This document shows, piece after piece, positions 979 through 38,683 of a stretch of DNA of 47,165 bases. The notes below the pieces were generated by a model, which worked only from the letters and a program-made list of their open reading frames with translations, did no database searches and was not told where the DNA came from. Position 1 is the first letter of the stretch. Each line of letters opens with the position of its first letter. Origin of the DNA: an uncultured bacterium. GTDB taxonomy: Bacteria; Cyanobacteriota; Vampirovibrionia; Gastranaerophilales; Gastranaerophilaceae. The stretch is taken from assembly GCA_949300515.1 (NCBI GenBank), contig CASGEP010000009.1, positions 1 through 47,165 on the forward strand. Reading direction: 5' to 3'. Position numbers and translations under genes: made by a program.

Positions 979-3900
979 TCAGAAGCAGATATTGTATCTG
1001 TTCATTATTTCAAGATGTTTGGAGCTCGGGTTGATTAACGGTTTGTAAAAAGTTGTAACGGTATCGTTTAAAACAATTTTTTCTCCGTCGGCGCGTCTCA
1101 GTTTGCCGTCTGCAACCACATATTTTACGGGGTTTCCGTTAGAGTCGAGTTCGTCCGTAAAACAAGCTTTATTTTCGTCGTAAACTTTTCTTTTTAAATA
1201 CTGCTGCGGGCTGTTTGCGTAGTCTATTTTGTACTCAACACCGTTTTCGTCTTTCATGCTTATCGAGGGCACCTCCATTGTTTCCTGTTTGTTTGAATCA
1301 ATACCGAGGTTTGTAAAGACCTGTATAACGTTTGAGCCTTTTGAGTCGTATTTAAGAAGCGCATAGAGCCTTTTTGAGTCTGCTTGGGGAAGCGAAATCG
1401 GCATGCCTCCTGCTATTGCGGAGAGTCCGTATTTGTTGTTCAAATCGCAAACAGCCTGAGTTTTATCGTAATATTTTTTAATAAAAGGTTTATATTCGCT
1501 TGAATTCGGATCAATCCATTCATGCCTTATCAGGTTTCTGTTTGCCTGAGTTATGTTCTTTGTGGCGTATTCATAGCCTGATTGACCCAGATTGTCGCCT
1601 GCGTAGAAAAACGGCATGCCTGTTGTCGCACAAAGGAATTCAGTCATTTTGGTTAACTTATCCATTGCGGGTGTCATAAATATTTCAAAAGCTTTGTCTG
1701 CAACCTGTTTTGCCTCGGTTTTACTGTACCATTTTATTCCTTTTTTGGCTGCAATGTATCCCGCCTCTTCCATAACGTCATTTATTGTGATTTCAAAAGG
1801 CAGCTGTCCGAATGCCTCAGCCCTTATGAAGTCATCGTTCTGTTTGTCTTTAAAATGTCCGAGTGCAAGATTTTTAATGGCTTCATTTATGATATCCAGC
1901 CTTACGGGATCGTTTTTTAAGACCCGTGCAAAGCTTTTTTTGTACATATCGCCCACAACGACGGCTTTTGAGCTTATTAAATCGTATTCGCGAAGCGGAG
2001 TCGTTTCGGCAGGCAGACCCAAAACATTTTCGGCAGCTAATTTTGCGGCTTTTATGTCCTGAGAGTTAATTTTGCTTGAGTCAACATTTATGCCGAACCT
2101 TGAAAGGTAAGCGCCCATATCAAGCGCAAGACAGTGAGGTCCGCGCGGTTTGTCATGGTTGTCCCAGAATATGTGGGCATGGGTAATACTCAAAAGCGGT
2201 CCTGATTTCATAAATGCTTCAAGTTTATCTTTTATGACGTTTAAATTATCATATTCTTCGCCTTTATTGCCGTGTTCAAAGTTTTTTGAGAATAAGTTCG
2301 GCGCAAGATTAAAGAAAACCGAATACTGGGAACCTGTGGTAGCGCCTGTTTTTTCGTTTATCATACGCTCCGCAACGTTGGGGTCTATATATTTACCCCA
2401 GTCAATTTCTCTTAAGAACTCTGCCCTGCTGTTGATGTCACTTTCGCTTGCATCTTTTCCGAGTTCATACCTTGCATTTACTTTGTAAATATCAAGGTTA
2501 CGCAGCGCCCACAAGTCCGTAAGTTCAAGAACTACGTAAGATGAAGGGTTAATCTTGCGAACGTTTTTAACAAAGTTACCCCAGATTTCAATAATATCAT
2601 CCAGTGATTGTTCAACGCTTCTCATGCCGTTTCTTGCCGCAGTTAAGTCGGCAACGTCTTTTGCTGCATCAAAACGCCAGTTTAAACCGCCCTGTGTCTG
2701 TTTTACAAACTCACGGGCAAACTTAAGGCTCTCAAGTGTGTAGTCGCTAAAGCCCGCCTGAATGAGTTCATCGGACAAATTCCACTGCATATCTCTTGTT
2801 TGGGCTCTTGAGCGCAAATTATTTATAATATTTTTTGCAAGATTTCTGCCGTCCTCCTTAACATCATTGCTGCTGACGACTTTTGCATCATAAAGTGTGG
2901 AATCTTTTAGTGCTCTTGAAGTAATTAAAGTACCCCAAGCAGGATCAATTGAAACTTCCTGATCGGGAAACATGCCCTTGAGCAGTGCGTAGCCCAGTAT
3001 AACAGATCCCCACATTTCAAGCATTTCTTTGCCGAATTTTGTGAGTTTAATCCTGTTGTCACTGTCAGCAAGTTCGTAGCTTCTTTCGCGTACTTTATTG
3101 CCTGTTATGTATTTGCCAAAGAGCTTGTATATGTCTTCCGTTGTGATTACATCGCTCGATTCAAGGGAAGTATCGATAATTTTTTCGCCCATTGACTCGT
3201 TAAGCCTTACAAGCACGCCGAGTACAAAGTCTGTTAATATTTCCCGCGATTCCGGTTTGTTCATATAAGCTTTAAACTGGGGAGTGAACAGCGCGGGCTG
3301 AATTTGTACCGAAACATCAAGAGTCGGGTATTTAAAGTTATCTATTACATCTTTTACTATTTTTTGCGCATCATACTGGGCTGCATCATCTCCAATGCAT
3401 TCTTTTTTGACTTCTTCAACTATTTGCGCAAGTTTATCATCGGGCAAGCCGTTTGCGCGCGCAACCTGCGCTATTTCTTCGTTGTTACCGTTAACATAAG
3501 CTTTTGCGATGTGGGCAACCAAGCTGTCATTTGCAAATTTTGTCCAGTGAGTAGCAACATCCCAGAGGTATTCTCTCGCGCCCTGAGAGCCTTCAAGGCT
3601 TTCAAAGGAGTGACCGGGGTTTGAAAGATTCATTTTAACAAGGTCGGTGTTGCCGTCCCAGAAGTCTGCGCCTGCGGCTCTGCCTTTTCTTACTATATCG
3701 AAATTATCAAACGAGAAAAACGCATCAAGATTGTCTATGATTTTCTTTGAACCGGGAGCTTCTTTTTCAAATATTTCATGGGTGTCTGTCAGCATTTTGT
3801 GATTGTAGCCCGTGAATTTATTTCTCACGATTTTGCTTGAATAGTCAAGTTCAAAGAAATAAGGCTGGATTGAATCCTGATGGGTTGTAATATCGTAGTG

Positions 3901-5028
3901 ATCTTTCGGGTTTGCATTATCATAGCTTGTTATGAGATTTTTTGTGTCAAGCTGCTGTTTTACACTTGCGAGCCTGTCGTCAAAAAATTGGATGTAGCTG
4001 GGTCTGTTGTGGTCGTATCCTTCCGTGCCCATAGCATTAATAATCTTAAAGCCTATGTGCTCAAGAGGATTGGGGCGGTTTGGATTTTCACTGTGTACTT
4101 TGTCGGGGAAAATGCCGACTTTGACTTTGTCTCTGACTTTAAACCAGTCATAAAAATATGACTCTTTACCTTTTTTCAGAACATCTTGAAAAAGCGGGCT
4201 TTGGATACTTTGCGAAGTAAATGCGCCGTCGGCTATGTAGCTTTTTCCCTGTCTGTAGAGTTCTGTTATAACTTCTCTGAATTTTGCCTGAGAAGGAACC
4301 CTGAAGAAATTTTCGCCCCAGTATTTATGCGACGACACGGAATCAACACCTATGTAAGGATTTGTCATTACGTATCTGTAGGGTTTTATTTCATCGGGGT
4401 ATCTGAGAAAATCTTCAACACTGCCAAGCGCTTTGTTAAAGTGGTTTCTTACATATTTTGAACGCTTATCCGGACTCATTTTCGGAGCATAAGTATCATA
4501 AAACATATGAATTGCCGAGCCTGATTTCGGCGTTACGCCCATTCTGTTTGAAACTACGGTAAACTCGCCGAATTGAGTCCCCATCCTTGTGCCTGCATCT
4601 AAAATAAGTTTTTTTGTTTCGATTTGAGAAAAGGGGTTGTTTGTATTTTTTGAATTTACGTTTTTAAACGCGTTTGCGGCATCTTTTTTATCTACGAGTC
4701 TGAATCTGTAGCCCATATACTCGCTGCTTGAAGGGTTGCTTATTGCGGTAGTTCTGGGGTATGCAGTTACGCCCGTGAGCCTTAAGTCATTGTAAGATTT
4801 GTTAATGGTTATAGGGGTTTTGCTGATTTTTTCATCAAATTTAAAACCGCCTCTGCCGTCCTCAACAACAGGGCAAACTTCAAGCAAAATGTCGTATTTG
4901 TCTTTGTCGTAAGGGGGAGCAAAAAACTTGTAAACATTATCTACGGTACGCTCTAAACCCTCAAAGCTTACGTTTTGACTTTTTGCGTTCTTTACATCAT
5001 ATTGTTGCTCTATTGCAGAAATTTTCAC
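979..5028 (-). CDS. Very large intracellular GH13-family (alpha-amylase-like) glycoside hydrolase
   Basis: 1349 residues, GTG start at 5028. The GH13 (beta/alpha)8 signature motifs are spread over the centre. WRFDAAKD (nucleophile Asp about residue 787) matches region II, VVLELTD (acid/base Glu about 835) region III, and WDNHDKPRG (Asp about 959) region IV; a C-terminal FYAGDNLGQ segment also fits. The family hydrolyses or rearranges alpha-glucosidic bonds in glycogen, starch or maltodextrin. Most GH13 proteins are 450-700 residues, so this one carries roughly 700 residues of unassigned N-terminal sequence. There is no signal peptide. Residues 19-24 are NVSFEG, a signature shared with unrelated proteins of the window. 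It is last of four tightly packed minus-strand genes (10550 to 979), 104 bp after the second GH13. Exact substrate unknown; a catalytically altered amylase-like protein is possible. Confidence 0.8.
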   Translation of the reverse strand: MKISAIEQQYDVKNAKSQNVSFEGLERTVDNVYKFFAPPYDKDKYDILLEVCPVVEDGRGGFKFDEKISKTPITINKSYNDLRLTGVTAYPRTTAISNPSSSEYMGYRFRLVDKKDAANAFKNVNSKNTNNPFSQIETKKLILDAGTRMGTQFGEFTVVSNRMGVTPKSGSAIHMFYDTYAPKMSPDKRSKYVRNHFNKALGSVEDFLRYPDEIKPYRYVMTNPYIGVDSVSSHKYWGENFFRVPSQAKFREVITELYRQGKSYIADGAFTSQSIQSPLFQDVLKKGKESYFYDWFKVRDKVKVGIFPDKVHSENPNRPNPLEHIGFKIINAMGTEGYDHNRPSYIQFFDDRLASVKQQLDTKNLITSYDNANPKDHYDITTHQDSIQPYFFELDYSSKIVRNKFTGYNHKMLTDTHEIFEKEAPGSKKIIDNLDAFFSFDNFDIVRKGRAAGADFWDGNTDLVKMNLSNPGHSFESLEGSQGAREYLWDVATHWTKFANDSLVAHIAKAYVNGNNEEIAQVARANGLPDDKLAQIVEEVKKECIGDDAAQYDAQKIVKDVIDNFKYPTLDVSVQIQPALFTPQFKAYMNKPESREILTDFVLGVLVRLNESMGEKIIDTSLESSDVITTEDIYKLFGKYITGNKVRERSYELADSDNRIKLTKFGKEMLEMWGSVILGYALLKGMFPDQEVSIDPAWGTLITSRALKDSTLYDAKVVSSNDVKEDGRNLAKNIINNLRSRAQTRDMQWNLSDELIQAGFSDYTLESLKFAREFVKQTQGGLNWRFDAAKDVADLTAARNGMRSVEQSLDDIIEIWGNFVKNVRKINPSSYVVLELTDLWALRNLDIYKVNARYELGKDASESDINSRAEFLREIDWGKYIDPNVAERMINEKTGATTGSQYSVFFNLAPNLFSKNFEHGNKGEEYDNLNVIKDKLEAFMKSGPLLSITHAHIFWDNHDKPRGPHCLALDMGAYLSRFGINVDSSKINSQDIKAAKLAAENVLGLPAETTPLREYDLISSKAVVVGDMYKKSFARVLKNDPVRLDIINEAIKNLALGHFKDKQNDDFIRAEAFGQLPFEITINDVMEEAGYIAAKKGIKWYSKTEAKQVADKAFEIFMTPAMDKLTKMTEFLCATTGMPFFYAGDNLGQSGYEYATKNITQANRNLIRHEWIDPNSSEYKPFIKKYYDKTQAVCDLNNKYGLSAIAGGMPISLPQADSKRLYALLKYDSKGSNVIQVFTNLGIDSNKQETMEVPSISMKDENGVEYKIDYANSPQQYLKRKVYDENKACFTDELDSNGNPVKYVVADGKLRRADGEKIVLNDTVTTFYKPLINPSSKHLEIMNRYNICF

Positions 5029-5132
5029 AGTAATTACCCTTTATTCCCTTCGATTTCTATAAAACATCTGAAAGTATAAAATTGCCTCGAAATGTGGTTT
5101 TGTTTAACAGATGTTAACTTATCATGCGGCTT

Positions 5133-6911
5133 TTAAAAATTTTGCTGCATAACATTTTGCGGATCCACCTGTTTTTCGATATTAGGTGTATTAATTTCAA
5201 AAACATGCGCTTTTAGAGGTCCTAAATCAACAGTCAGAGAATTATCCGCTTTTTGGAAATAACTTGGCTGAGCATAGGACGGCACAAGATTTTTAAGTTC
5301 CTGATTTTGCCTGAAACCGGGTATTTCTATTCTGCCGCTTCTTCTTAAATTAGCGTTTCTGTTGCCGATAAAAAGAAGGGTTTTGCCGTTTTTATGGCGT
5401 GCATAAGCAATGATTTCAGGATTGTTTGTTTCAAGTTTTATAAATGAACCATGTTCGATTATATTTTTATACTCGGGCTTTACCTCGCCGTTTCTAATCT
5501 TGTGTGCGGCTGTCATAAACTCTTGAATTTGAGGATATTCGCCGCCCGGTTTTCTTGAGAAGTTAAATATATCAAGTCTGCCCGTGTGAACGGTGCATTC
5601 GTAGTTGTCTGTTTGAGATGTGGGGGATTTTGCGTGGTCATAGGGGTACAGGTAATAATCGCCCGTTTGAACACCGTCTATATAATAAGGGTTAACCATC
5701 GGAAGCGTGCATTGCAGAGCGGTTGTAAACATTACCCAGGGGGCGCCGCCGTAGTGCATGGGGCTTTGGTCATCGTGCGTTGTCATAGAACCGATTAGAG
5801 ATTTCGGCTCGCTTTGCCTGTTTGACATGTCGATGTTTTCTTTCATATATTTAAACAGGTCATCGGCTTTTGTCCACTGGCTCAGAATATGGAACTGACC
5901 GTAATAAGAATCAAAACCGCCTCTTAATTGGTCTTCGGGTCTGTCGTAGGGCATATTGAGCTGCGGAGAAGCATCTTCATGGGTGTATGATTCTGCCAGC
6001 CAGCCGAATTGCGGGTCTTTTATGTGCGAGTAGGGAATAATTACATTCCAGAACTCTATCGGCTTAGCACGTGATACGTCGGCTCTGATACCGTCTATAC
6101 CGAGTTCTACACAGGCATCTACGTATTTTTTGTGCATATCAACAAGTTTGGGATTAAGTTTGCGCTCGCCTTCATTATCCCAGACTCTGAACATTCTTAT
6201 GTCCTGCCAGCCCTGCGGTGTTTTGTCCTGTCCGTCTTTTTCTTTTGCCATCAGCTCCGGATGTCTTTTTGCAAAATCAAGACTGGCGCAGGAGGGCAAA
6301 TCAAGCATTACGGACATTCCGCGCTTGTGGCATTCGTCAATAAAAATTTTAAAGTGATCCCAGGCACTGCCTTCCATATTCGGGTCTTTTAAATTCGGGT
6401 CAACCGCCAGTTTGCCGTCATCTTCAAGAAATCTGTCCGGCGCATAAAGGGAGCCTGCCGTACCCATAGCCAGTGTTTTGCCTGTCGGGTGTATGGGAAG
6501 AATGTGCAGGGTGTTAATACCCATAGCTTTTATTTCATCAAGTCTTTCTATGGCATTTATAAAGTTACCGCTCTTTTCGCCCGCCTGAATAAGTCCGTTG
6601 CCGTCGAGGTCTTTTGCGTTCATTATCCTTGGAACAACGCCCAAAATTGTGGCTTCGTTGTTTTTGAGCATATCTTTAAAACGGTTGTGCCATACAACGG
6701 GGGTATGTGTTTTTATTTCGTTAACGGCATTTGTCTTTTGGACCGGAAGAATTTGGCTTGAGTGTTTGATTATGTATCTTGAGAGCAGAGGGTTAAACGG
6801 CATACTTTGGCTGTTTTGCACCTCTTGTTTTGTTGTGTCGTTCGTTTTTTGAGCCGCGGCAGCTTTTCTCGGGTAAACTAAATAACGGGCTGAAATATTA
6901 TTTACTTGCAT
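5133..6911 (-). CDS. GH13-family alpha-amylase-like protein with an EF-hand-like loop
   Basis: 592 residues. All catalytic GH13 motifs are present: GIRADVSRAKP (nucleophile Asp about 278), WLAESYT (Glu about 307) and MTTHDDQSP (His-Asp about 379-380), plus INTLHILPIHP at the first barrel strands and a C-terminal beta-sandwich. Predicted to cleave or transfer alpha-1,4-glucans. Residues 101-112 (DLDGNGLIQAGE) form a textbook EF-hand calcium loop in an insertion just before the barrel. No signal peptide, so cytosolic. The first roughly 60 residues are Ser/Asn/Gln/Ala-rich, like the leaders of neighbouring lineage proteins. Its start overlaps the end of the upstream 866-residue gene by 14 bp, implying translational coupling. 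Substrate cannot be decided from sequence alone. Confidence 0.87.
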   Translation of the reverse strand: MQVNNISARYLVYPRKAAAAQKTNDTTKQEVQNSQSMPFNPLLSRYIIKHSSQILPVQKTNAVNEIKTHTPVVWHNRFKDMLKNNEATILGVVPRIMNAKDLDGNGLIQAGEKSGNFINAIERLDEIKAMGINTLHILPIHPTGKTLAMGTAGSLYAPDRFLEDDGKLAVDPNLKDPNMEGSAWDHFKIFIDECHKRGMSVMLDLPSCASLDFAKRHPELMAKEKDGQDKTPQGWQDIRMFRVWDNEGERKLNPKLVDMHKKYVDACVELGIDGIRADVSRAKPIEFWNVIIPYSHIKDPQFGWLAESYTHEDASPQLNMPYDRPEDQLRGGFDSYYGQFHILSQWTKADDLFKYMKENIDMSNRQSEPKSLIGSMTTHDDQSPMHYGGAPWVMFTTALQCTLPMVNPYYIDGVQTGDYYLYPYDHAKSPTSQTDNYECTVHTGRLDIFNFSRKPGGEYPQIQEFMTAAHKIRNGEVKPEYKNIIEHGSFIKLETNNPEIIAYARHKNGKTLLFIGNRNANLRRSGRIEIPGFRQNQELKNLVPSYAQPSYFQKADNSLTVDLGPLKAHVFEINTPNIEKQVDPQNVMQQNF

Positions 6912-9498
6912 TTACCCCTCCGTTTTCTTTTTTACCGTAAAGATGTTCGTTTTTGACCTTGCCGAAGAACAGCTGGGAAACAACCGTAAGAGCCATAACT
7001 CCGGCTGTTATAGGCAGGAATATTCTCATCCATGTTCTGTCGTTGAATTTTCTGCTGGCTGTTTCCATAAACAGCTCGGAGCCTGCTTTTCCAAGCATTG
7101 AATACTGCACTTTCGGGCTTGAGGGCATATACGCACTGTTGTCTATATGACCCGGTCTTGCATGGTCGAGCATTTTTCCGTATATGTTGTAGAAATTTGA
7201 CCTTGTTTCTTTTAATTTTGCAAGCAGAGAGTCATCGCAGGAATTGCTCGTTAACTCGCTCAATGCACCGTAAGGAGCTTTAGCGCCCTCGGGTACAAAG
7301 TCGCTTTGTTTGAACAAGAGCTGCAGAATTTTCGGAGCTTCAATGCCGTTGCCTTTCATATAAAATTTGTTTGCAAGGTCGTTCATTGTACCGTCATACA
7401 TTATGTCGCGGCAAACTTTAATAACATCGTCGCCAAGTTCCTGACCGCCTGTTAAATATTTCCAGTATGCTTCAAGTTCGCCTGTTTTCAGTCTTCTTTC
7501 AAAGTCTGCTTCTAAAATGTATCTGTGACCCGTAGCTTTAACTCCCGCGCTCTTTTCTTCCACAAAGGACTGTATTACTTTTTGCATTAAGGGAGAAGTT
7601 CTGTACATCTGCGGATTTGGTGCATTTTTACGGAGGTAGCCGATTAATTTTTCATCGGGCACTTCCCCGCCGTTTCTTTTAACAAGTTCTTCATAAGAAA
7701 CTTTTAAATCATCCGCAACGAACTTTTTAACTTTGTCCATGTCGTATCGGGCTTCTTTTTTGAATATTGCAAGCGGCGAGTCGTCCGGTATTGTATCAAA
7801 TGCATTTGAGAGAACCGAGCTTACTCTTTTAGCGATGCTGCCAAAGAAGTTGTCAATTACCGACGATTCAAACTTAGCCTGTCTTGATGTGATATCGGAG
7901 ATAAATTTGCCGTACTTGTCATCGCTTGAAGCAATTTTGCCGAGCTTGCCGCTGAGTATGGTTTTTGCACTTTCAGGGTTAAGTCTTGCTTCTTTGAGTT
8001 CCTTATAAGAAAGATTTAAACTTTTCATAAGTTCATCCAGAGAGCTTAAGTGTATGTTCGTTTGGACGGATTCGTATTTTTGACCGCCGATGGCATTTAA
8101 AAACTCTGATATAGTGGCAACCATTGCACCCAGAGGTCGTGTTTGAGTGTTGTATATGTCTTTTATGTTCTTGCAGACATCTTCAACGGCTTCTCTTGTG
8201 TTTGGCTGAAGTTTTGCCAAATCCTTGTAGGCGCGCATTACGTTTTCTTTTTCCGAAGGGTCTGTTATTGTGTCTATGACGGTATTGTAGACATCTTCCA
8301 CATGTTTTGAAGGAAGATATTGAACGCCGTCCACTTCGTAGCCCGAGTTTGTAAAGGCTTCTTTAATTTTTGATACAAATTCGGATTCTTCGACATTGCC
8401 CTGAATATCCGCAACGCTGTCGCCGATTCTTTCGCGCAAAATTTCCGTTATATCTTCGTATCTCAGTACGCCTTTGCCCCTGAACACCCTTTTGCTTTCA
8501 AACTCATCTTCAAGAATTTTGGAAATTCTTGCGGAGTAATTATTTAGCTCTGCAATCAAATTGGCATCATCCGTGTCTCTGGCATTTAAAATCGCATGGA
8601 AGGGATTAAGAAGTGTTGCGGCATGCCTGAAATATTGTTTATCGGGCTCGGCAAGCACGGGATCCGTAAGGACTTTTAATTCTTTTGCATCAACTATGTT
8701 AAATGCCGGATCTTTGATTTTTTCCGCAGCCATTTTTTCAATGTTGTCAAGGTTTTTGATTGCCTTGCTGCAGTTGTGATTTATGATATACTTAGTTACC
8801 CCTCTTTCTGCAAGGTTGCATATCATAGAGGTTAAAAGCGGGCTGAAACCTGCTGTTAACATCCACAATGTATTACCTTGAAGGGCGATTGTGCGCATTT
8901 TTTCTTTTGTTAATTCTCTGTAATCATGTGTAGTTTTGTCTATTCCGAGTTTGTCCGCAACTCTGTCGATTTCTTCTTTTGAATACAGGTCGGGTACAAA
9001 CTGGTTATCAAGATATAATCTCTTTTTTCGGCCCTGTGCATCAACATATTGCTGACGGATATCAAAACCGTAAAGAAATTTTATAGGCTCTGATATAAGG
9101 AGTCTTGGCCATGCTGCCATCGAAGCAAAAAATGAAGCCGCGCCGATAAATTCCATCAAACCTTTTGTGCTCGTTCCGCGTTTTGTAAAAAGATAAGAAG
9201 CAATACCCAAACTGCCAAGCTTCATACCCAGATCGTTAAATCTGCCGAGCTGGTTATCGTTTGATTTACCTGTCGCAAGAGCTTTGCCCAGCTCTACAAC
9301 GTCTTTTGCAGTGTCGTATGTGCCGATTATAACACTTGAAACAGGGTTTCTGCTTTTTAAGAGGTATGCACGGTTCGGCTGCGGAGCAATAGAATTTGCA
9401 TTAACAAGAAATGCTCTGTATGCATCCTGCTCTGCAATTGCCTTGCTCAGCTGTTTGTATTGGTTATTTTGAATAGAGGAGTTGATTTTATTATCCAT
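6898..9498 (-). CDS. Large lineage-specific protein with N-terminal membrane segments and a C-terminal anchor
   Basis: 866 residues, no recognised domain. Hydrophobic stretches occur near residues 100-140 (FIGAASFFASMAAW), around 205-230 (TAGFSPLLTSMICNLA) and at the C-terminus (IFLPITAGVMALTVV) before a short Lys/Asn-rich tail. The roughly 600 residues between are hydrophilic and probably helical. The start codon overlaps the stop of the upstream 350-residue gene by one base (TAATG), and its own end overlaps the GH13 downstream by 14 bp, so all three should be made together. The position suggests a membrane scaffold for the two GH13 enzymes, but that is inference from context only. Confidence 0.75.
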   Translation of the reverse strand: MDNKINSSIQNNQYKQLSKAIAEQDAYRAFLVNANSIAPQPNRAYLLKSRNPVSSVIIGTYDTAKDVVELGKALATGKSNDNQLGRFNDLGMKLGSLGIASYLFTKRGTSTKGLMEFIGAASFFASMAAWPRLLISEPIKFLYGFDIRQQYVDAQGRKKRLYLDNQFVPDLYSKEEIDRVADKLGIDKTTHDYRELTKEKMRTIALQGNTLWMLTAGFSPLLTSMICNLAERGVTKYIINHNCSKAIKNLDNIEKMAAEKIKDPAFNIVDAKELKVLTDPVLAEPDKQYFRHAATLLNPFHAILNARDTDDANLIAELNNYSARISKILEDEFESKRVFRGKGVLRYEDITEILRERIGDSVADIQGNVEESEFVSKIKEAFTNSGYEVDGVQYLPSKHVEDVYNTVIDTITDPSEKENVMRAYKDLAKLQPNTREAVEDVCKNIKDIYNTQTRPLGAMVATISEFLNAIGGQKYESVQTNIHLSSLDELMKSLNLSYKELKEARLNPESAKTILSGKLGKIASSDDKYGKFISDITSRQAKFESSVIDNFFGSIAKRVSSVLSNAFDTIPDDSPLAIFKKEARYDMDKVKKFVADDLKVSYEELVKRNGGEVPDEKLIGYLRKNAPNPQMYRTSPLMQKVIQSFVEEKSAGVKATGHRYILEADFERRLKTGELEAYWKYLTGGQELGDDVIKVCRDIMYDGTMNDLANKFYMKGNGIEAPKILQLLFKQSDFVPEGAKAPYGALSELTSNSCDDSLLAKLKETRSNFYNIYGKMLDHARPGHIDNSAYMPSSPKVQYSMLGKAGSELFMETASRKFNDRTWMRIFLPITAGVMALTVVSQLFFGKVKNEHLYGKKENGGVNASK

Positions 9499-10550
9499 TA
9501 GTGCACCTCATATTCCCTATCTATATCAATTTGTGTGTCAGGCTGATTATCCGCAATTCTAAAGCCTCTTGTGGCATTGAAAACCCCGAGGACCGTAGAA
9601 GCCAGAGCGCCGAAGATTAAAGTTCTGCCCAATATTTTGGAAGCATACATATATTTGCCGGGATTGCCGTTATATAAATCAAGGAAGCTGTCTTTAAGGG
9701 TAGTTGCAAAGTTTTTGCCAAGCCCGATAAGTCTTTCTCTTTTCGTACCGCACACAGGAAATATAATCGGTTTTTCAAAAGGTTCCTGAGCGGCAAGTGC
9801 AACACCGAGTGCAGCCCATATGTAAGAGCTTATGTATTTTGCACTTGTTGCTTTTACTATAATTTCTCTTACCTTGTCCTGAATTGTTTGATCCGGAGAG
9901 TTAAGGCGTGTTTTAAAGCCCATTTTTCTGGCTATTTTATCCCACCATAAAAATCTGTTGCCTTTTTGTTCGCCCATTTTATTTATAAGGTCAAAACGCG
10001 GGAAGTCTGCACTTTCAAAGACTCTGTGATATTCAACCCTTGTTAAATCCCTGTCTCCTTTGTACTCAGGAAGCTCCGTTACCACTTTTTTATAAGGCAT
10101 TTCAAGATCTACGCCGGTTTTATACTCTACCCCTTTGTTAATAAACTTTGAGCCGAGCCACTTGCCGAGCGCGTAAAAAACAACACCGTATGCCATTTTT
10201 CTGCCGGGTATTGCCGCATATGCTCTGTCCGGATTTCTGAATTTGGAATTTGCCAGATTAAACAGGGCGATAAGCGCTGCGGAGCCTGTTATATTGGGTA
10301 TTAAACCCATTGATAAAAATTCGTAAAAATTAGAGTTTCTTGAGCCCTGCATGCCTTTTGGAGCATATGTGAAAACACTGTTTACAAGCTTATCTGCGAC
10401 AATTCTTGCTCCCGTCAGAGGCGTTTTTTTAATAATTCTGTCAGAGGTGCTTGACAGTTTTTTATGCGCCTCATCGGATGCATAATAAGAATTTTGAGGC
10501 ATATTTACTAATTTTATCTGACCTGTTTGCACCTTGTTATAGGACTCCAA
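9498..10550 (-). CDS. Lineage-specific multi-span membrane protein, first gene of the GH13 unit
   Basis: 350 residues from a TTG at 10550; no strong ribosome-binding site is seen, and an internal ATG at residue 17 is an alternative start. Hydrophobic segments: SMGLIPNITGSAALIALFNLA (about 92-112), RKMAYGVVFYALGKWLG (about 127-143), YIWAALGVALAA (about 242-253) and a C-terminal LIFGALASTVLGVF (about 313-326). No known family was recognised. It is the promoter-proximal gene of the minus-strand unit that includes the 866-residue protein and two GH13 enzymes. The TAATG junction with the next gene indicates coupled translation. A membrane partner of a glucan-processing complex is a guess from synteny. 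Confidence 0.7.
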   Translation of the reverse strand: MESYNKVQTGQIKLVNMPQNSYYASDEAHKKLSSTSDRIIKKTPLTGARIVADKLVNSVFTYAPKGMQGSRNSNFYEFLSMGLIPNITGSAALIALFNLANSKFRNPDRAYAAIPGRKMAYGVVFYALGKWLGSKFINKGVEYKTGVDLEMPYKKVVTELPEYKGDRDLTRVEYHRVFESADFPRFDLINKMGEQKGNRFLWWDKIARKMGFKTRLNSPDQTIQDKVREIIVKATSAKYISSYIWAALGVALAAQEPFEKPIIFPVCGTKRERLIGLGKNFATTLKDSFLDLYNGNPGKYMYASKILGRTLIFGALASTVLGVFNATRGFRIADNQPDTQIDIDREYEVH

Positions 10551-17258: not shown

Positions 17259-19100
17259 CTAGTGTCCTGCTACATAAATATTGCCCCTGACACTTCCTAT
17301 GGCGTATTTTTCACAAAATGCACCAAGCGCGTCTTTTGCTTCTTTAGAATCGTATACAATACCGCTTTGTAAGTCAGCATTTTTTGCAAAATCATTCAAT
17401 ACAAATTCAGGCACGCCGTAGTATTTATTTTGCTCGCTTGTGCCATGGAGCCTTACTTCGTTTGCAACATCTTTTATTAATTTTAAATAAGCTTCCGCTG
17501 TTCCAATGTCATCCCAAACGGCTGTTTTGCCGCCTTTTGCTTCTAAGGGCACAGTGTAAACTTTCATCTTGTTACCTTCTTCATCGAGCAATTTTCCTTC
17601 ATTTGCAAGCTTAACAATTTTTGGCATAACATTTCCGCCGAGACCCGTTTCATCAGGCGTCAAAATTCCTTGCGCCATAAGGACTTTTAAGGCTTTATCC
17701 GATAAGAAATAAAGTCCGGGGTTTGCAAGAAACTGGCTTTCATCTTTAGGGTTGATAGCACTTTGAACTTTTCTGAATTGTTCCATAGCCTCGTCATACT
17801 TACCGGGTTGAGTAAACTCGTTTGGCATTGGCGCATCGGAAGTATATTGCGGTTTTTCCAAAAATTCTTTAATTTGCAAATTGCCGTTTTCATCTTCCTT
17901 AATTCCCAAAAGCCCGAAAGACTTTGCCCTTTGAGGGTTTACAGGGTAGTAAGGAATAACAAGGGCAGCGTTGGGCAGAGTTTTTAGTGCTTTATAAGTT
18001 CGACTTATATCGGCATTTGTAAATATATCCGCATTTAAAATCATTGCATCACGGTCATTTCTTATAATATCTCTGCTAAGTCCCTCTGCTATTGCCCCTC
18101 CGTCCGTTTTATATTTTGAAACGTAATATACACCTGCGCCGTCTTTAATTTCGTGGTTTTGACTCAAATACTTAACATCATCATTCTCACCTCTTAAAAC
18201 ACCTGCTGAGGCTGCAAGATTAAGTGTTGTCCCTATAATTCTGTATCTTTCATCCGTCGGAAGTTTTGCAGAGGGCTTATTTTCATATTCTCTTGTAATA
18301 TTAAAAAATCTTTCACCAAAACCGCCTGCGGGGATAATTACCGTAGGGTCATATTTCTCAACAAGATCCGCGTAATCTCCTCTTATAGCGTTTTTTTGTA
18401 AACCTGATTCAACATAAGCATCAACCGCACTAATTGTTCTTGGTTCTTTATTCAAAGTCGTTATAACCGTTCTTCCCGTAAAGGAAACATCCCTAAAACC
18501 TTCGTTGGGTGTAGGTTCGTATTGTCCGGGCATTTTGAGAGAAAAACCTTCACCGATAAGCTCTGAACCTGAGAACATTTTTATTGTCTTAGAGCCCAAA
18601 GAAGGGTCTTTTACAGTAATTTCAGGCATAAATTTGCCTTGTTTATAAGTTATAACAGGAAGCTGCGCCCTATTGGGGTCAACTTTGCCTATAAAAATAA
18701 TATTTCCCTTGTCGTTTGAAACGGTATATTTATCAAGACCTTCCGATGATTCTTTAATAACATTTAATCCTGCAGCATTTAGTTTTTCATAGCCTTTTGG
18801 CATTTTTTTCAAGGGTAGGTCAATATTATTGGGAATTTCAAGCAAATTCGGAATTCTTATTTCTTTTGGAGTAATAATAGATTTTTCAAAATCATTTAAC
18901 TCCATTGCGCCTGCAAAATTGAGCGTTTTTGCATTTTTAATGCCATATAGTGCCTGATATGCGCTTGCCAACTTTAGCGCAGATGTTTTTGTACCTGCAA
19001 AATTAACGCTCGATTGGCTTTTTTGCACAGTATTTGCGGCAACATCAACCCTTTTTGCCTGTGAATATCTCACAGGGCTTAAAGATACCTTGTTCAACAT
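17259..19100 (-). CDS. GlgC-like nucleotidyltransferase with a 250-residue N-terminal extension
   Basis: 613 residues from the ATG at 19100 (AAAGGAAAA upstream); an upstream in-frame TTG at 19139 is less likely. The sugar-nucleotidyltransferase core starts near residue 253 with TVIIPAGGFGERFFN (altered GGxGxR pyrophosphorylase loop) and contains AMILNADIF, SFGLLGIKEDENGN and FLEKPQY, as in glucose-1-phosphate adenylyl- or mannose-1-phosphate guanylyltransferases. Such enzymes make NDP-sugars for glycogen or surface glycans. The first 250 residues match no family I know. Residues 31-36 (SVNFAG) carry the F-x-G signature also found in the large GH13, and a second NFAG occurs near residue 63. 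It has its own terminator. Substrate not certain; ADP-glucose would fit the neighbouring glucan enzymes. Confidence 0.8.
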   Translation of the reverse strand: MLNKVSLSPVRYSQAKRVDVAANTVQKSQSSVNFAGTKTSALKLASAYQALYGIKNAKTLNFAGAMELNDFEKSIITPKEIRIPNLLEIPNNIDLPLKKMPKGYEKLNAAGLNVIKESSEGLDKYTVSNDKGNIIFIGKVDPNRAQLPVITYKQGKFMPEITVKDPSLGSKTIKMFSGSELIGEGFSLKMPGQYEPTPNEGFRDVSFTGRTVITTLNKEPRTISAVDAYVESGLQKNAIRGDYADLVEKYDPTVIIPAGGFGERFFNITREYENKPSAKLPTDERYRIIGTTLNLAASAGVLRGENDDVKYLSQNHEIKDGAGVYYVSKYKTDGGAIAEGLSRDIIRNDRDAMILNADIFTNADISRTYKALKTLPNAALVIPYYPVNPQRAKSFGLLGIKEDENGNLQIKEFLEKPQYTSDAPMPNEFTQPGKYDEAMEQFRKVQSAINPKDESQFLANPGLYFLSDKALKVLMAQGILTPDETGLGGNVMPKIVKLANEGKLLDEEGNKMKVYTVPLEAKGGKTAVWDDIGTAEAYLKLIKDVANEVRLHGTSEQNKYYGVPEFVLNDFAKNADLQSGIVYDSKEAKDALGAFCEKYAIGSVRGNIYVAGH

Positions 19101-19215
19101 AAGAGTTTTCCTTTCAACTACTCTCTTTACAACTAACAACCTATTTTTTTGCGAATTACTCGTGTACTCAAATAAAACACATAAAGATTTTTTTTGAACT
19201 GTTTTTTACAAATCT

Positions 19216-27416: not shown

Positions 27417-27418
27417 CA

Positions 27419-27965: not shown

Positions 27966-28223
27966 ATGTCCACAAATTTCAACATAAAATCGTTCGGATT
28001 AAATGTAATTCCTGACGCAAAACAAAACAGTCACACGGCCCAGACCGTTGAAAAAGCAATAGGGGATATGTGGGAGCCTGTGTTAGACTATCTTGCCACA
28101 AACGAAAACGTTTTCAGCGGAGAAGTCGCAAGAGAAATCAACAGAATAAACATACAGACAATGCAGCTGGGCACAATTGTAAACGCTGACAGGGAAACGA
28201 GAAATTTAGACACAAAATTTTAA
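27966..28223 (+). CDS. Small hypothetical protein
   Basis: 85 residues with an AGGAG site upstream. The sequence starts NFNIKSFGL, recalling the N-terminal signatures of neighbouring lineage proteins, and is otherwise a hydrophilic, helical-looking protein (KAIGDMWEPVLDYLATNENV). No known family. Its stop overlaps the stop of the convergent GGDEF gene through a shared TTAA. Confidence 0.6.
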   Translation: MSTNFNIKSFGLNVIPDAKQNSHTAQTVEKAIGDMWEPVLDYLATNENVFSGEVAREINRINIQTMQLGTIVNADRETRNLDTKF

Positions 28224-33359: not shown

Positions 33360-33378
33360 GATTTATTTTTACAATAAA

Positions 33379-33819
33379 TTATCTTTCCGAATTTGACTTT
33401 GTTATGATGTCGTAAAGTTCTTTTACCGCAAAGCCTGTTGCAACTGCTGCAGTCAGCGCCGTAGCGGCAATTTTAACCCCTTTTGCGCCTTTATTTTTTG
33501 CAACAAATTCCGCAACCGTATCTTTTGCTTTAAGTGCGCCTTTTTTAATTGCGCCGCCTGCCGTTTTTGCACCGCTTAATGCTTTTGAACCCGCAAAGGT
33601 TATGGCACCCGCAACTTTTGAAGCTGCGCCTTTTGCGCTGTTCGCTGCAGCCGGTGCGGCATCTTTTACGCCTTCAACAACACTTGAAGCTGCATTTTTT
33701 ACACCTTTTGCTGCTGCTTCAACGGTTTCTTCTGCACCGCCTTGAAATGAAACATTATTTGAACTTGGCACCCTTCTTCTGCCGAGTGTAGAATTTGCAT
33801 TTACCGCCTGTATGTTCAT
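33379..33819 (-). CDS. Ala/Lys-rich amphipathic-helix protein with the F-x-G signature
   Basis: 146 residues. Residues 22-27 (NVSFQG) carry the N-terminal signature and a second TFAG is at about residue 73. The middle (about 35-115) is low-complexity Ala/Gly/Lys with near-periodic segments such as VKNAASSVVEGVKDAA and GALKAKDTVAEF, resembling LEA- or synuclein-like amphipathic helices. A moderately hydrophobic helix (KIAATALTAAVATGFAV) near the C-terminus could insert in a membrane. AAAGGAC precedes the ATG. It is probably co-transcribed with the upstream gene (16-bp gap). Function unknown. Confidence 0.65.
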   Translation of the reverse strand: MNIQAVNANSTLGRRRVPSSNNVSFQGGAEETVEAAAKGVKNAASSVVEGVKDAAPAAANSAKGAASKVAGAITFAGSKALSGAKTAGGAIKKGALKAKDTVAEFVAKNKGAKGVKIAATALTAAVATGFAVKELYDIITKSNSER

Positions 33820-33835
33820 TTTATTGTCCTTTCAA

Positions 33836-34507
33836 TTATATTTCGCCAATGACGTCGGCACCGGGGATTGCATTCATCACTCTTGTAATGTCCCTTACCG
33901 CATCTTTAAGAGTTAAGTCTTTTTGTGTATCATCCGCTATATCGCCTGCTTCACGTCCCGCAAGCACTGCCGCGCCAACGGCAATTGCAGTATCTGCAGC
34001 ATCGCCGCCCGTATTGATACCGAATTTACTTAAAACATCGAGAGCTTTTGCGCCCTTTTCTTCGCCCAAAACTTTTGTAATGCCGCGTCTTAATACGCTG
34101 CCGTCGCCCTTTTGAGCTATTTTTGCAGCTTCTTTTGTCATTTCATCCGCAACATCCGAGATGTTTTTGCTGTTAATTTTTTTACCGACATTACCGAAGC
34201 TTCCCGCGATTTTTGATGTTGCGTTAGATATGCCGTTTCTGAGCTTGGGTGAAACTTTTTTAAACGACACAACCGCAGCCGCAAAGCTTGCTCCCGATAC
34301 CAATAAGTTGACAAGTTTGCGCCCCGATTTTGTCTTTTTAAGTCTGCCGTCAAGGACATCCGCAACAAGTATCGGATCTACGCTAAAATCGCTCTCGCTT
34401 ACATTTTGGAGCGCCTGTGCGTGTGCTTCAAGCGCCTCGGGCGTAAATCTTGCCTTTGTTTGCTGTCTGTTTGGAACTGTTTGATAATTTACATCTATCG
34501 GGTTCAT
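33836..34507 (-). CDS. Lineage-specific protein with a central hydrophobic segment
   Basis: 223 residues from the ATG at 34507, chosen because AGGAGC lies 8 nt upstream; upstream in-frame TTG/ATG codons at 34573 and 34534 lack a site. A hydrophobic stretch (LLVSGASFAAAVVSF) sits at about 75-90, followed by a Lys/Ser/Asn-rich helical region (ISNATSKIAGSFGNVGKK). Residues about 180-200 (DAADTAIAVGAAVLAGREAG) are Ala/Gly-rich. No family recognised. It leads a two-gene unit with the Ala/Lys-rich protein downstream. Confidence 0.6.
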   Translation of the reverse strand: MNPIDVNYQTVPNRQQTKARFTPEALEAHAQALQNVSESDFSVDPILVADVLDGRLKKTKSGRKLVNLLVSGASFAAAVVSFKKVSPKLRNGISNATSKIAGSFGNVGKKINSKNISDVADEMTKEAAKIAQKGDGSVLRRGITKVLGEEKGAKALDVLSKFGINTGGDAADTAIAVGAAVLAGREAGDIADDTQKDLTLKDAVRDITRVMNAIPGADVIGEI

Positions 34508-34627
34508 ATTTATTGCTCCTAACCTTGCACCCATGGAAAGTCTGTGAATATTTTTTTTTGCCTTTATAGCCAAAAAATTTACAAAACTTTACACACCTGC
34601 CAACCAAAGAAATTATACAACATTTTT

Positions 34628-35851
34628 TTAATATTTAAAATACTTTTTATCGGCTATTTCATCGGGCAAAAATTGCTGATAAACATCGGGAGCGCTGTGA
34701 GTGTAAATATAACCTTCGCCAAAACCGTACTTCGAAGCATCTTTATAGTGCGCATCCCTTAAATGCATGGGCGGGTTAAAATCAAGCCCGTTTTTAATAT
34801 CCGCCATAGCCTCATCAACCGCGCATATTGCCCTGTTTGATTTTTTTGCGCGCGCGACAAACTCTGTTGCCTGCGCAAGTGCTATGCGCCCTTCGGGCAT
34901 TCCGAGGTGCTCAACCGCCCTCAGTGCGGCTTCCGCAATTAAAAGTGCGCGAAAATCTGCATTTCCGACATCTTCTGATGCCGTAACAAGAAGCCTCCTT
35001 GCGATAAAGCGCGGATCTTCGCCCGATACAAGCATTTTTGCAAGGTAATAAATTGCAGCGTTTGCATCAGAGCCGCGAAGGGATTTTTGATACGCCGAAG
35101 CAAGGTCATAATGCTCATCAATCCCGTATTTTGCCGTCCTTTTTTGCAAGAGCGTTTCAATTATATCTTTTGTGATTTCGCCCTTTGTCGCAAAATAAGA
35201 ATTTTCCACCGTATTTAGTGCAAACCTTGCGTCCCCGCGCGACAATTTTGTAATTGTTTCAATGGCCTCACCGCTTACTTTTGCACCTTGCGAGGGGTAA
35301 GTTTTCAACAAATAATCATACCCTTTTTGAATAATTTTTTTTATGCTCAAATCATCAACAGGGTTTAAAATTACCACCTGTGCACGTGACAAAAGAGCAG
35401 GTATAACCTGAAAAGAGGGGTTTTCCGTGGTTGAGCCCATAAGGTGGAAAGTGCCGTTTTCAATATGCGGCAAAAGCGCGTCCTGCTGGGTTTTAGAGTA
35501 TCTGTGGATTTCATCTATAAAAACAATTGTGCGTACACCCGCTCTGAGCGCTTCTTTGGCTGATGTCACGGCGTCTTTTACGTCTTTTACGCCCGAAGTC
35601 ACGGCGGAAAGCTCTATAAAATTTGCATTATGATGATTTGCTATAAGGCGCGCAAGGGTAGTCTTTCCGCACCCCGGGGGTCCCCAGAGGATAAAAGAAA
35701 AAAGTCTTTTTGCTTTTATTAAGTTATATATAGGCGAATTTTGCGAAATTACATTTGTCTGCCCCAAATACTCATCAAGCGTTTTTGGGCGCAAAATCTC
35801 AGCCAGAGGCATTTGTTTGTTACTGTTTTCTAGTGCATCAAATAAATTCAT
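34628..35851 (-). CDS. rarA: Replication-associated recombination protein A (MgsA/WRNIP1 family AAA ATPase)
   Basis: 407 residues. RPKTLDEYLGQTNV, P-loop GPPGCGKT (57-64), TIVFIDEIHRYSKTQQDALLP and LMGSTTENPSFQVIPALLSRAQ are RarA signatures. The C-terminal half (RGSDANAAIYYLAKML, DFNPPMHLRDAHYKD) matches the tetramerisation region. RarA works at stalled forks. Its ATG is 14 bp from that of the divergent solute-binding protein and has no ribosome-binding site. Confidence 0.95.
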   Translation of the reverse strand: MNLFDALENSNKQMPLAEILRPKTLDEYLGQTNVISQNSPIYNLIKAKRLFSFILWGPPGCGKTTLARLIANHHNANFIELSAVTSGVKDVKDAVTSAKEALRAGVRTIVFIDEIHRYSKTQQDALLPHIENGTFHLMGSTTENPSFQVIPALLSRAQVVILNPVDDLSIKKIIQKGYDYLLKTYPSQGAKVSGEAIETITKLSRGDARFALNTVENSYFATKGEITKDIIETLLQKRTAKYGIDEHYDLASAYQKSLRGSDANAAIYYLAKMLVSGEDPRFIARRLLVTASEDVGNADFRALLIAEAALRAVEHLGMPEGRIALAQATEFVARAKKSNRAICAVDEAMADIKNGLDFNPPMHLRDAHYKDASKYGFGEGYIYTHSAPDVYQQFLPDEIADKKYFKY

Positions 35852-35865
35852 AGTATAATTTTAAC
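35852..35865. promoter_or_regulatory. 14-bp divergent leaderless promoter between rarA and the solute-binding protein
   Basis: Only 14 bp separate the two start codons. On the plus strand TATAAT (35854-35859) ends 6 nt before ATG 35866. On the minus strand TAAAAT (35863-35858) ends 6 nt before the rarA ATG (35851). The two -10 boxes overlap by two bases, and no Shine-Dalgarno sequence fits on either side. Confidence 0.6.
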
Positions 35866-37119
35866 ATGATTAAAAAATTTTTTTTGACGGTATTTTTAGT
35901 GCTGCTGTGCGCCGCTTTTTTGGCGGGCGGATTTTATTACCTTAAAAAATACAAAAACTCCAAAAACGCGCTTACCGTATGGACAATACAGCTAAAACCG
36001 GCTGCGGCGGAGATAATTGAAGAAAATATTTCCCGCTTCAGGCAAATTCACCCTCAGGTTAAAGTTATCTGGGTTGATATCCCGATAGCCGAAGCCCAGA
36101 AAAGGACTCTTGCTGCGATTTTAGGCGGAAACCCTCCCGATTTAATAAATTTAAACCCTGATTTTTCTTTAATTTTAGCCCAGAGAGGCGCTCTTGAATA
36201 CTTTAGCGGGGAACAGGGCGAAAAATTTATTCCCTCGACCCTTGAAATGCTAAAATACGAAGGTAAAATATTTGCCCTGCCGTTTTATGCGACAAGTTCA
36301 ATTACTCTGTACAACAAGGGAGTTTTTGACTCCTGCGGATACACACAAACCCCAAAGTCATATGAAGAATTAGTACAGATTGCACAGGATTTAAAAAACT
36401 GCAGCGGAATTTACCCGCTTGCAATAAATCTGAATGAAAACGATTCTCTCGCAAAGATTTTAAACAAATACGGCGTAAACAGTTTTGAAAGCGAGGACGA
36501 GATTAAAATAGCCGTTTTTGTTTATTCGATGTTTAACGATTTATACAAAAAAAACCTGATTTCAAGGGATACTCTCACCATAAATCACCGCGAAATGTCG
36601 GAAAAATATATGTCTAAAAATGCCGTTTTTGTTGTTCTGGGGTCAAATTTCTTAAATATGGTAAAAGAAAATGCGCCCGGGGTTTATCTGCAATCCGACA
36701 TATATGAGCAGCTGAAACCCGAATCTGGAAAATATGACATAGCGCTTATGAATTTAGTTATTCCAAAGTATGCAAAAAACAAAGCCCTTGCAAGGGAGTT
36801 TGCAAATCTTTTGACAAACACGGAAAGCCAGCTGAAACTTGCAAAACTCACAAACGTAATCCCGGCAAACAAAGAAGCACTTGAAGATGAGTACTTTAGC
36901 CAATGTAAGAGCGATTTAGGCGCAAAGGCAAGGTGCATAGGAATTGAGCAGCTTAAAAACTCGGGCAACAGGGATTTTGGCGTTAAAAATAAAAAAGAGA
37001 TAAATGAAGCAATAAATAAAACCGCGGAAAAAATTCTTTTAAATCCGGACATTACGGATAAAGAAATCGAAAAAGAAGTAAGAGCTCTTGCTAAAAGAAT
37101 TGAAGAGCTTAGAGCCTAG
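35866..37119 (+). CDS. Extracellular solute-binding protein (sugar type), membrane-anchored
   Basis: 417 residues. An N-terminal hydrophobic segment (about 5-27) followed by KKYKNSKNALTVWTIQL looks like an uncleaved anchor; VLLC is not a good lipobox. The body matches family-1 binding proteins of sugar ABC importers: ENISRFRQIHPQVKVIWV, AAILGGNPPDLINL, YNKGVFDSCGY, and EFANLLTNTESQL near the C-terminus. No permease or ATPase gene accompanies it, so its transporter must be elsewhere or absent. The ATG follows a -10 box without a ribosome-binding site. The end overlaps the convergent 234-residue gene by 11 bp. Confidence 0.85.
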   Translation: MIKKFFLTVFLVLLCAAFLAGGFYYLKKYKNSKNALTVWTIQLKPAAAEIIEENISRFRQIHPQVKVIWVDIPIAEAQKRTLAAILGGNPPDLINLNPDFSLILAQRGALEYFSGEQGEKFIPSTLEMLKYEGKIFALPFYATSSITLYNKGVFDSCGYTQTPKSYEELVQIAQDLKNCSGIYPLAINLNENDSLAKILNKYGVNSFESEDEIKIAVFVYSMFNDLYKKNLISRDTLTINHREMSEKYMSKNAVFVVLGSNFLNMVKENAPGVYLQSDIYEQLKPESGKYDIALMNLVIPKYAKNKALAREFANLLTNTESQLKLAKLTNVIPANKEALEDEYFSQCKSDLGAKARCIGIEQLKNSGNRDFGVKNKKEINEAINKTAEKILLNPDITDKEIEKEVRALAKRIEELRA

Positions 37120-37813
37120 CTTTTTCGCCGCTTTTAATTTTATCCAGAGTTTTTTTGGAGCCTTCATGTTCTCTTGAGAGTTCAAGCACGAACTCGATTG
37201 CCTCAACATCGCGCCTTATTGCATCTTTTAAGGACATAATATCCTGATAGCCAAGCTTTTGAACCTTTTTCGGGTCGGCAAATTCAAAAACTTTTTTAAA
37301 ATTTTCCTGGGCCGCATAGTCATATCCCGGCAGTTTCATTTTGTATGAATACCACTTGTGGAACTGGTGCGACATAACATAAATATTAAGGGGCAAATCC
37401 CTCAAAACAAACATTTCGGAAGTCTTAAAGGCGATTTTTTTGTTTAATACAACATTCAAATAAAGCGCCTCAAGCCCGCTCTTTGGCGTAATAAAACCTT
37501 CTTCTTCCTTCACGCAGGATAAAATTTTATCCGCAAAAGGAACTTTTATAACTCTTGTGCCTGATTTTTCAACATATTCAAGCAGTTTTTCCGGAGTGTT
37601 AATATTTTTTTTAACGATTTTTTTAACCGTTTCTTTCATTATTTTCATTTTCTCGCGTGTTTTTGAATCAAAAGACACGGTTGCAAAAGATGTAATGTGC
37701 GAACTTACCGAACCGCAAGAGTAAGAATAAAGATTTTTCTTTATTTTAGAGCGCATTTTATCTTCCTGCATTTTTAAAATTTTATTTAAAAGTATTTGTG
37801 CAAACTTCCTCAT
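37109..37813 (-). CDS. Hypothetical Lys-rich protein
   Basis: 234 residues, no signal peptide or membrane segment. Residues near 45 read ATVSFDSK, reminiscent of the F-x-G signature but without the Gly. Middle section FITPKSGLEALYLNVVLNKKIAFKTSEMFV and a helical C-terminus (DIMSLKDAIRRDVEAIEFVLEL). No known family. Several in-frame starts are possible; 37813 gives the longest form. Last 11 bp overlap the solute-binding protein gene. Confidence 0.55.
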   Translation of the reverse strand: MRKFAQILLNKILKMQEDKMRSKIKKNLYSYSCGSVSSHITSFATVSFDSKTREKMKIMKETVKKIVKKNINTPEKLLEYVEKSGTRVIKVPFADKILSCVKEEEGFITPKSGLEALYLNVVLNKKIAFKTSEMFVLRDLPLNIYVMSHQFHKWYSYKMKLPGYDYAAQENFKKVFEFADPKKVQKLGYQDIMSLKDAIRRDVEAIEFVLELSREHEGSKKTLDKIKSGEKARL

Positions 37814-37915
37814 ACACTATTAAAAACAAAATAGTGTAAAAAATTGCTACAAAAAAATATTTTTCGGTAAAATAAAAATCTTGAGGGGTTTTAACTAAGC
37901 GAAGGCAACAGTTAT

Positions 37916-38683
37916 ATGAAAATTAATTCGCTAAATGGAAGTATTAATTTTAAAGGCGGTACCGGTCTTTCAAAAGGCTTTAGATACGCTCTGGGGGAGG
38001 GTTTTGCAAAAATTGACCAAATTGGCGAAGGTACAAACATTGCACTTGACTTTATCGGCAAAGCGGTGATTGTGCCTGCTGTTATCCTTGCCGTTTCAAA
38101 AGAGGACAAAGAAAAAAAAGAGTATTCCGCCCTTAAAAACCCTGTGGCGGCAACTATTCAGCTTTTAATGGAAGTACCCATTTTGATGGCGTGTTCAAAA
38201 TTCATCGAAAAGCTTGCAAACTCGGGCGCCTTAGACCCGCAAACAGGCATAAAACACTATAACGAGAGCGAAGCAAAGAAATTATTTTTGCATTTTACAG
38301 AGAGAGCCTCAAAAAACGACAAAACATTTGAAGAAAAATCCAAAGAATTAATCACAAGGCTTGATAAAGAAGGGCTTACAAAAAAGTTGAAAGAGGATTT
38401 TAAAATTTTAATCAAAAACTTAAAAAACCCGACCGATAAAAAACTTCTCGGCTCTGCTCTTGAGGGCTACAACCACACAAAAAAAATGCTTTTCCATCTG
38501 CAAAACAGAATAAGCTTCATTGCAGCGCTGGCACTGACGCCCGTTTTGTGCATGGCGGAAGATTTTATTTTTCCGAAAATTATGAATTTAATTATCAAAA
38601 AACCTCAGGAGCCTGTAAAAAAAGAGCGCCCGATAACGCTTGAAAAGTACATTAATCTTATAAGACAGGGAGGTGTGAAATGA
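37916..38683 (+). CDS. Lineage-specific membrane protein with the F-x-G signature
   Basis: 255 residues. Residues 9-14 (SINFKG) directly follow MKINSLNG and carry the shared signature. Hydrophobic segments lie at about 45-60 (GKAVIVPAVILAV), 78-95 (AATIQLLMEVPILMACS) and 198-220 (ISFIAALALTPVLCMA). The soluble part between is charged and helical. The arrangement of a hydrophobic stretch followed by a PILMACSKFIEKL-type segment recalls the 866-residue protein of the GH13 unit, but homology cannot be shown by eye. Stop overlaps the next gene by 4 bp. Confidence 0.65.
   Translation: MKINSLNGSINFKGGTGLSKGFRYALGEGFAKIDQIGEGTNIALDFIGKAVIVPAVILAVSKEDKEKKEYSALKNPVAATIQLLMEVPILMACSKFIEKLANSGALDPQTGIKHYNESEAKKLFLHFTERASKNDKTFEEKSKELITRLDKEGLTKKLKEDFKILIKNLKNPTDKKLLGSALEGYNHTKKMLFHLQNRISFIAALALTPVLCMAEDFIFPKIMNLIIKKPQEPVKKERPITLEKYINLIRQGGVK

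Follow-up and report, generated by a model that had tools for sequence, protein, structure and literature searches.

A short F-x-G motif in the polar leaders of unrelated Gastranaerophilales proteins, a candidate docking tag

Four proteins encoded on one contig of an uncultured gut bacterium of the order Gastranaerophilales begin with a polar leader followed by nearly the same six residues, and raise the question of whether unrelated proteins can carry one short address. The window, the whole stretch of 47,165 nucleotides that we analysed, is contig CASGEP010000009.1 of assembly GCA_949300515.1. Its genome is close to Ca. Galligastranaerophilus. A preliminary description of the window had proposed a tag read by a common partner.

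Four hexamers and their hosts

Translation places all four hexamers at the residues first reported for them. The largest host is a GH13-like protein of 1349 residues with a GTG start (979..5028, minus strand), assigned from a homologue profile. It carries NVSFEG at residues 19-24 (4957..4974, minus strand), of which F22 and G24 are kept in homologues. A GlgC-like nucleotidyltransferase with its leader (17259..19100, minus strand; PF00483, 4.5e-16) bears SVNFAG at residues 31-36 (18993..19010, minus strand), a second leader copy, LNFAG, at residues 60-64 (18909..18923, minus strand) and an internal copy, DVSFTG, at residues 204-209 (18474..18491, minus strand). Its length of 613 residues is counted from the ATG at 19100, which we took as the start because homologues begin like that version; an alternative TTG at 19139 would put SVNFAG at residue 44. 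The third host, an Ala/Lys-rich protein of 146 residues (33379..33819, minus strand) with no match in the Pfam search, has NVSFQG at residues 22-27 (33739..33756, minus strand) and possibly a second copy, ITFAG, at residues 73-77 (33589..33603, minus strand), read in this sequence alone. On the plus strand, a 255-residue protein with two hydrophobic segments by hydropathy (37916..38683) bears SINFKG at residues 9-14 (37940..37957), and its homologue in the same-genus genome G091 aligns from residue 1 with 55% identity.

The claim of one short motif on unrelated proteins is borne out. Three weaker variants reported beside the hexamers (MTF at 39186, VSFDS at 37109 and SFG at 27966) are indeed in the sequence; they lack F-x-G and were left uncounted.

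Conservation in the GH13-like family

Among the genomes listed, homologues of the GH13-like protein occur in 84 of 85 genomes of its family, and a profile built from 26 of these sequences finds GH13 neopullulanases among PDB entries (2wc7, 2e-16). These 26 form an alignment of full-length sequences that includes the window's own, to which all the others but one are 23-28% identical. M1, F22 and G24 are invariant (26/26), residue 2 is K in 25 sequences and residue 3 is V or I in every one, with M-K-[VI] in 25 of the 26. Four further loci with no closed frame were kept outside the alignment and their N-termini read separately. Three of them (L109, L111 and L114) start M-D-L and the fourth (L118) M-R-L, and M-K-[VI] is therefore not universal. 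F-x-G is present in all 30 N-termini, with V, I or L at position -2 in 28, behind a spacer that differs in length and sequence and puts F at residue 15-22. The tree of the family amounts to 10.8 substitutions per site; 75 of 1113 gap-free columns are invariant, and F22 and G24 are among them. The codons of both residues vary over the 26 sequences (Gly GGA 9, GGT 6, GGG 6, GGC 5; Phe TTT 22, TTC 4). Therefore, it is the protein and not the RNA that is conserved.

Few kept residues in a fast-changing flank are what is expected of a short linear motif, and the region directly behind the tag is conserved too. A structure model of residues 1-380 is poor overall (mean pLDDT 49.6); residues 1-22 score below 50, confidence rises behind the tag, and short strands are drawn at residues 25-27 and 33-35. 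In 22 of the 26 homologues a further copy lies in the C-tail, at 25-43 residues from the end of the protein, and one more has V-A-F-T-G there. The window's own protein is without a C-tail copy.

The GlgC-like family and copies outside the leader

GlgC-like homologues were read from five families of the order (f1, f3, f4, f6 and f7), giving eight sequences, two of them near-identical. Their leader copy is looser, with F-x-G in five, F-G in the two near-identical ones and F-x-A in one. The internal copy is invariant at F and G in all eight (F207 and G209 in the window), and the catalytic domain, as matched by Pfam, follows some 45 residues later. This copy reads DVSFTG in the window and DVSFSG, KLTFQG, DITFNG, SVSFTG, NLSFTG or SISFTG in the homologues. 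Homologues in both families compared, GH13-like and GlgC-like, thus keep the motif, whose absence from orthologues had been named beforehand as an outcome that would count against a tag. As judged from these alignments, the motif is under selection in at least these two families.

Because the internal GlgC-like copies and the GH13-like C-tail copies are conserved, the motif is not exclusively N-terminal. It is a tail or linker motif as well in these two families and commonest at N-termini overall.

Enrichment at N-termini

The samples comprised 825 kb of the window's own genome (724 called genes), 690 kb drawn from 18 further genomes of its family and 100 kb from one genome of its genus. They also took in 293 kb from other families of the order, 93 kb, extended to 193 kb, from another family of the class, and 216 kb from other members of the phylum. 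Gene starts were the output of a purpose-made simple gene caller. The enrichment tests, like those of residue 3 below, were regex-based.

With the regex suggested in the preliminary description, [STN][VI][SN]F.G at residues 5-40, 4 of 39 window genes match against 0 of 260 internal windows (p=2.5e-4). Outside the window the counts are 5/1750 and 2/9393 (p=1.5e-3). Shuffling of the 724 own-genome N-termini, window included, gives 0.29 expected where 8 were found, with a maximum of 3 in 300 shuffles. One of the five matches outside the window, L053:5187-6068, looks like ScpA, and we assume that an N-terminal F-x-G of ScpA's own may explain it. With the window left out and residues 4-60 searched over the order, [VI][SN]F-polar-G matches 13/1750 N-termini and 9/5670 internal windows (p=3.7e-4); with a form wider at position -1 the counts are 17/1750 and 26/5670 (p=0.014). 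Over all order samples [STN][VI][SN]F.G at residues 4-40 gives 8/1621 against 1/8462 (p=3.4e-6) and the relaxed regex 32/1621 against 61/8462 (p=1.1e-5). Reversed and F-to-L control regexes show no enrichment over the same samples, and an F-to-Y control is weakly enriched (14/1621 against 40/8462, p=0.04).

Sub-samples are less clear. In family f1 alone the relaxed regex is not significant (6/570 against 22/3073, p=0.27) and the reversed control is on a par with it (7/570 against 18/3073, p=0.08). In the other families of the order the relaxed regex reaches 5/242 against 8/1148 (p=0.06), and the form wider at position -1 shows nothing (1/242 against 7/708, p=0.91). Another family of the class (f8) has two regex matches in 154 genes, both hydrophobic by eye, a set too small to argue that the motif is missing there, and other members of the phylum have 1/128. 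C-tails in general are without enrichment (0/1293; relaxed 12/1293 against 67/6410). The enrichment is thus real in the pooled data but modest, and weak in some sub-samples. The motif is above chance in unrelated proteins, and N-termini lie above expectation, in the pooled data; the pooled set is a mixture of true tags and chance matches, judged so because one apparent tag (L058) sat behind a Sec signal.

Composition of the leaders

A list of 57 candidates, drawn up partly by eye, served to annotate hosts, to measure the composition of leaders and to look for clustering; it holds weak variants, among them a 5'-nucleotidase (L193) without F-x-G, and the later-rejected L058. In 36 leaders of this list N makes up 15.3% of residues against 6.0% in all proteins, and E 2.3% against 7.2%; N, S and Q are over-represented in the leaders, and E, L and G are scarce. 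With the window excluded, I or V stands at residue 3 in 15 of 39 relaxed-tag proteins and in 255 of 1711 others (p=3.4e-4); with two narrower tags the counts are 6/14 (p=0.013) and 5/15 (p=0.07). M-x-[IV] at the extreme N-terminus is therefore a second element associated with the tag.

Two other leader patterns were compared. D-T-F-E, a motif picked after being seen, occurs in 8/1789 against 2/3549 (p=0.0035), and for D-T-V-S-F, which was rejected, the counts are 6/1789 and 5/3549 (p=0.12). A blind N-terminal pattern search ranked signal peptides and pilins at the top, and a trained score matrix was dropped after it drifted toward housekeeping motifs.

Tagged hosts across the order

Together the 57 candidates match 33 Pfam families, whereas a random set of 57 proteins matches 129. 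Tagged hosts that could be identified are the GlgC-like transferase, a sucrose-phosphatase-like HAD protein, an HNH nuclease, an FtsH-like AAA/M41 protein and a TPR protein, with the 5'-nucleotidase weakly tagged; ankyrin and CheR are also among the Pfam matches of the list. Hosts as varied as these suggest no single pathway.

A family of 505-residue proteins is glycosidase-like by eye only and matches no family or PDB entry. A tag-like leader is found at loci L195-L198, with F-x-G in L196, F-G in L197 and L198 and neither in L195. Copies of about 440 residues that start at the fold make up 7 of 20 loci, 9 of the 20 being unusable, and two matches to the family occur in 11 of 60 genomes. Of 14 genomes tested for canonical glycogen synthase, 12 give a strong match, and among the matches listed a divergent relative 935-987 residues long is present in five genomes. 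These hint at a second glucan enzyme set in the order.

Tagged genes of the by-eye list form 8 adjacent pairs where 1.6 are expected. We nevertheless do not claim clustering, the objective regex giving 8 against 4.25, a value reached in 118 of 2000 shuffles. A phage link is not supported. No relative of the GlgC-like protein turned up in the viral collection, and of 10 tagged proteins compared with PHROGs one has a match, an HNH nuclease; yet the list of 57 matches 15 PHROG families, several strongly and of unknown function.

What might read the motif

We consider it quite possible, if somewhat short of probable, that the hexamers are a lineage-specific short linear motif on unrelated hosts that serves as a docking tag. 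The consensus would be close to M-x-[IV], a polar spacer and [VIL]-x-F-x-G, in leaders of otherwise unrelated proteins, with two families bearing the motif in a linker or C-tail as well. The leaders are presumably flexible. A common putative partner would bind the F-x-G strand and dock the hosts at one cellular site; the docked set may comprise divergent glucan-type enzymes (GH13-like, GlgC-like and the 505-residue family) and several small membrane proteins. Among the readings we weighed, docking is the best, type III-like export the boldest and a structural strand the soberest.

Export would make the leader a signal whose M-x-[IV] and downstream F-containing motif are read by a second, non-flagellar type III-like system. 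A machine that could do so seems to be at hand. All 98 genomes of the order have FHIPEP above cut-off, 97 of them with a best E <1e-200. Matches of a second E-value class (about 1e-201 to 1e-222), taken as the gate of the second system, are listed for 93 of these genomes, and flagellin is found in only 35. FlhB is present in all 19 genomes tested for it, 16 from the order and 3 from another family of the class, and all 20 tested for rod-type genes (17 and 3) have them. In the window's genome Pfam places SLT, FliE, FliF, FliH and FlhA together, and the 314-residue protein at the FliG position has no Pfam match; by eye, similar gene runs occur in named Gastranaerophilales. In the portions of the papers available to us, incomplete flagellar sets are read as flagellum loss (eLife 2013 e01102; GBE 2014 evu073), and a 2018 termite-gut paper describes a TXSScan search for secretion systems in one genome; in the parts seen of the literature on the order or class and type III or secretion systems, a non-flagellar type III system is nowhere linked with the order. 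Early flagellar subunits, according to the available part of one study (eLife 2022 e66264), combine a hydrophobic N-terminal signal with a downstream gate recognition motif. The tag is alike in that I/V is commoner at residue 3 of tagged proteins and in that two rod proteins resembling FlgC (L147:1640-2083, and L218:5160-5603 immediately ahead of the type III-like operon) bear D-[IL]-S-F-H-G at residue 48. It is unlike in its spacing, the GH13-like F at residue 15-22 falling short of the 24-30 residues given for FlgD, and in its conserved internal and C-tail copies, which do not fit an export signal. The relaxed motif is also in none of the 6 FliE and 4 other rod or hook-like proteins compared. 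The tagged gene that lies beside the operon in G000 and G091 is on a separate contig from the gate in the 23 other genomes listed with both, G045 has tag-like leaders though only partial gate matches were found, and a GlgC-like transferase would be an odd substrate. We regard export by such a system, for which the support is indirect, as rather unlikely. Its wider form we rate as doubtful: the bipartite leader would be an order-wide sorting code, read by this second machine or by a stand-alone FlhA-domain relative, and the tagged proteins would be the secretome or assembly set of a supposed decaying flagellum. The Sec and Tat routes were rejected, the maximum 12-residue hydropathy in residues 1-35 being 1.6 or less in the 57 listed proteins. 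Apart from L058 these lack a Sec-type hydrophobic core there, which agrees with another exit; L058 itself, an LptC/OstA-like protein near the gate (L058:5542), was dropped as tagged for a Sec signal upstream in frame.

It may also be that there is no common reader. [VI]-x-F-x-G would then be a first beta-strand or a cap that recurs on the domains it precedes, mixed with chance matches. The conservation that runs on behind the GH13-like tag and the short strands of the weak model would agree with this, but the motif precedes proteins of unrelated families, and the residue-3 association and the internal and tail copies would be left unexplained; we hold a purely structural origin to be unlikely. 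A processing or degradation signal, with F-x-G as the recognition site of a protease that shortens or degrades the hosts, is very improbable. It would suit a motif close to the N-terminus with nothing but a polar leader in front, but no protease is tied to the motif, and the conserved internal copy would mean cutting the GlgC-like enzyme ahead of its catalytic domain. Bacterial microcompartment (BMC) encapsulation peptides are short terminal peptides on unrelated enzymes, as the tag would be, and require BMC shell proteins. Shell genes were found in 0 of 14 genomes searched, and microcompartment docking is unlikely here. The closest parallel to the docking we propose is the carbonic anhydrase CsoSCA, whose disordered N-terminal peptide, in the part of the report available to us, docks on Rubisco and suffices for foreign cargo (PNAS 2023, PMC10614612). 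In both cases an enzyme is brought to a hub by a peptide at its N-terminus, for the tag as proposed; CsoSCA is one cargo with a known partner, whereas the tag would serve many unrelated hosts with a putative partner and outside any shell found.

Implications

The tag question also points to a type III-like system, one that the literature, in the portions available, reads as an incomplete flagellum. If the docking reading is true, an uncultured gut order marks many proteins that are unrelated to each other, and mostly belong to no known family, with a single short address. The tag would then be a handle on the roles of these proteins, and the search for a binder of [VI]-x-F-x-G would become concrete.

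A second type III-like system

A gene run at G000:C15:13859-20413 in the genome from which the window derives (sampled loci L038 and L194), and likewise loci L215-L227, encode SLT, FliE, FliF, a protein without family assignment in the position of FliG, FliH and FlhA. This run is a second, non-flagellar type III-like system, whose FlhB and rod genes are located elsewhere, outside the run from SLT to FlhA. FlhA matches of the second E-value class are found in 93 of the 98 genomes of the order, and flagellin is found in 35. Two FlgC-like rod proteins (L147:1640-2083 and L218:5160-5603) carry D-[IL]-S-F-H-G at residue 48, which fits the relaxed form of the tag. A protein of about 490 aa comprises the FlhA cytoplasmic part only (L186:1468-2949 and G000:C27:12333-13370; FHIPEP 309-654 or 321-656), and, among the matches listed, many genomes of the order have similar rows.

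The GH13-like family and its neighbourhood

Among the genomes listed for the family, G045 alone has no GH13-like match; it is also the one genome sampled from the order in which a near-full-length FlhA-type match is missing. This double absence reflects either genuine co-loss or an assembly gap. At L107-L134, the GH13-like protein carries a C-terminal S/T-F-T-G tail in its final 45 residues, often followed by Y-N-P-Q-Y-N; L106, L113 and the protein encoded in the window lack the tail. Window positions 979-10550 are likely an operon, in which the gene of the GH13-like protein is joined by those of another, divergent GH13-like protein of 592 aa and of an 866-aa and a 350-aa protein. In another genome, G089, visual inspection places a relative of the 866-aa product near the GH13-like gene.
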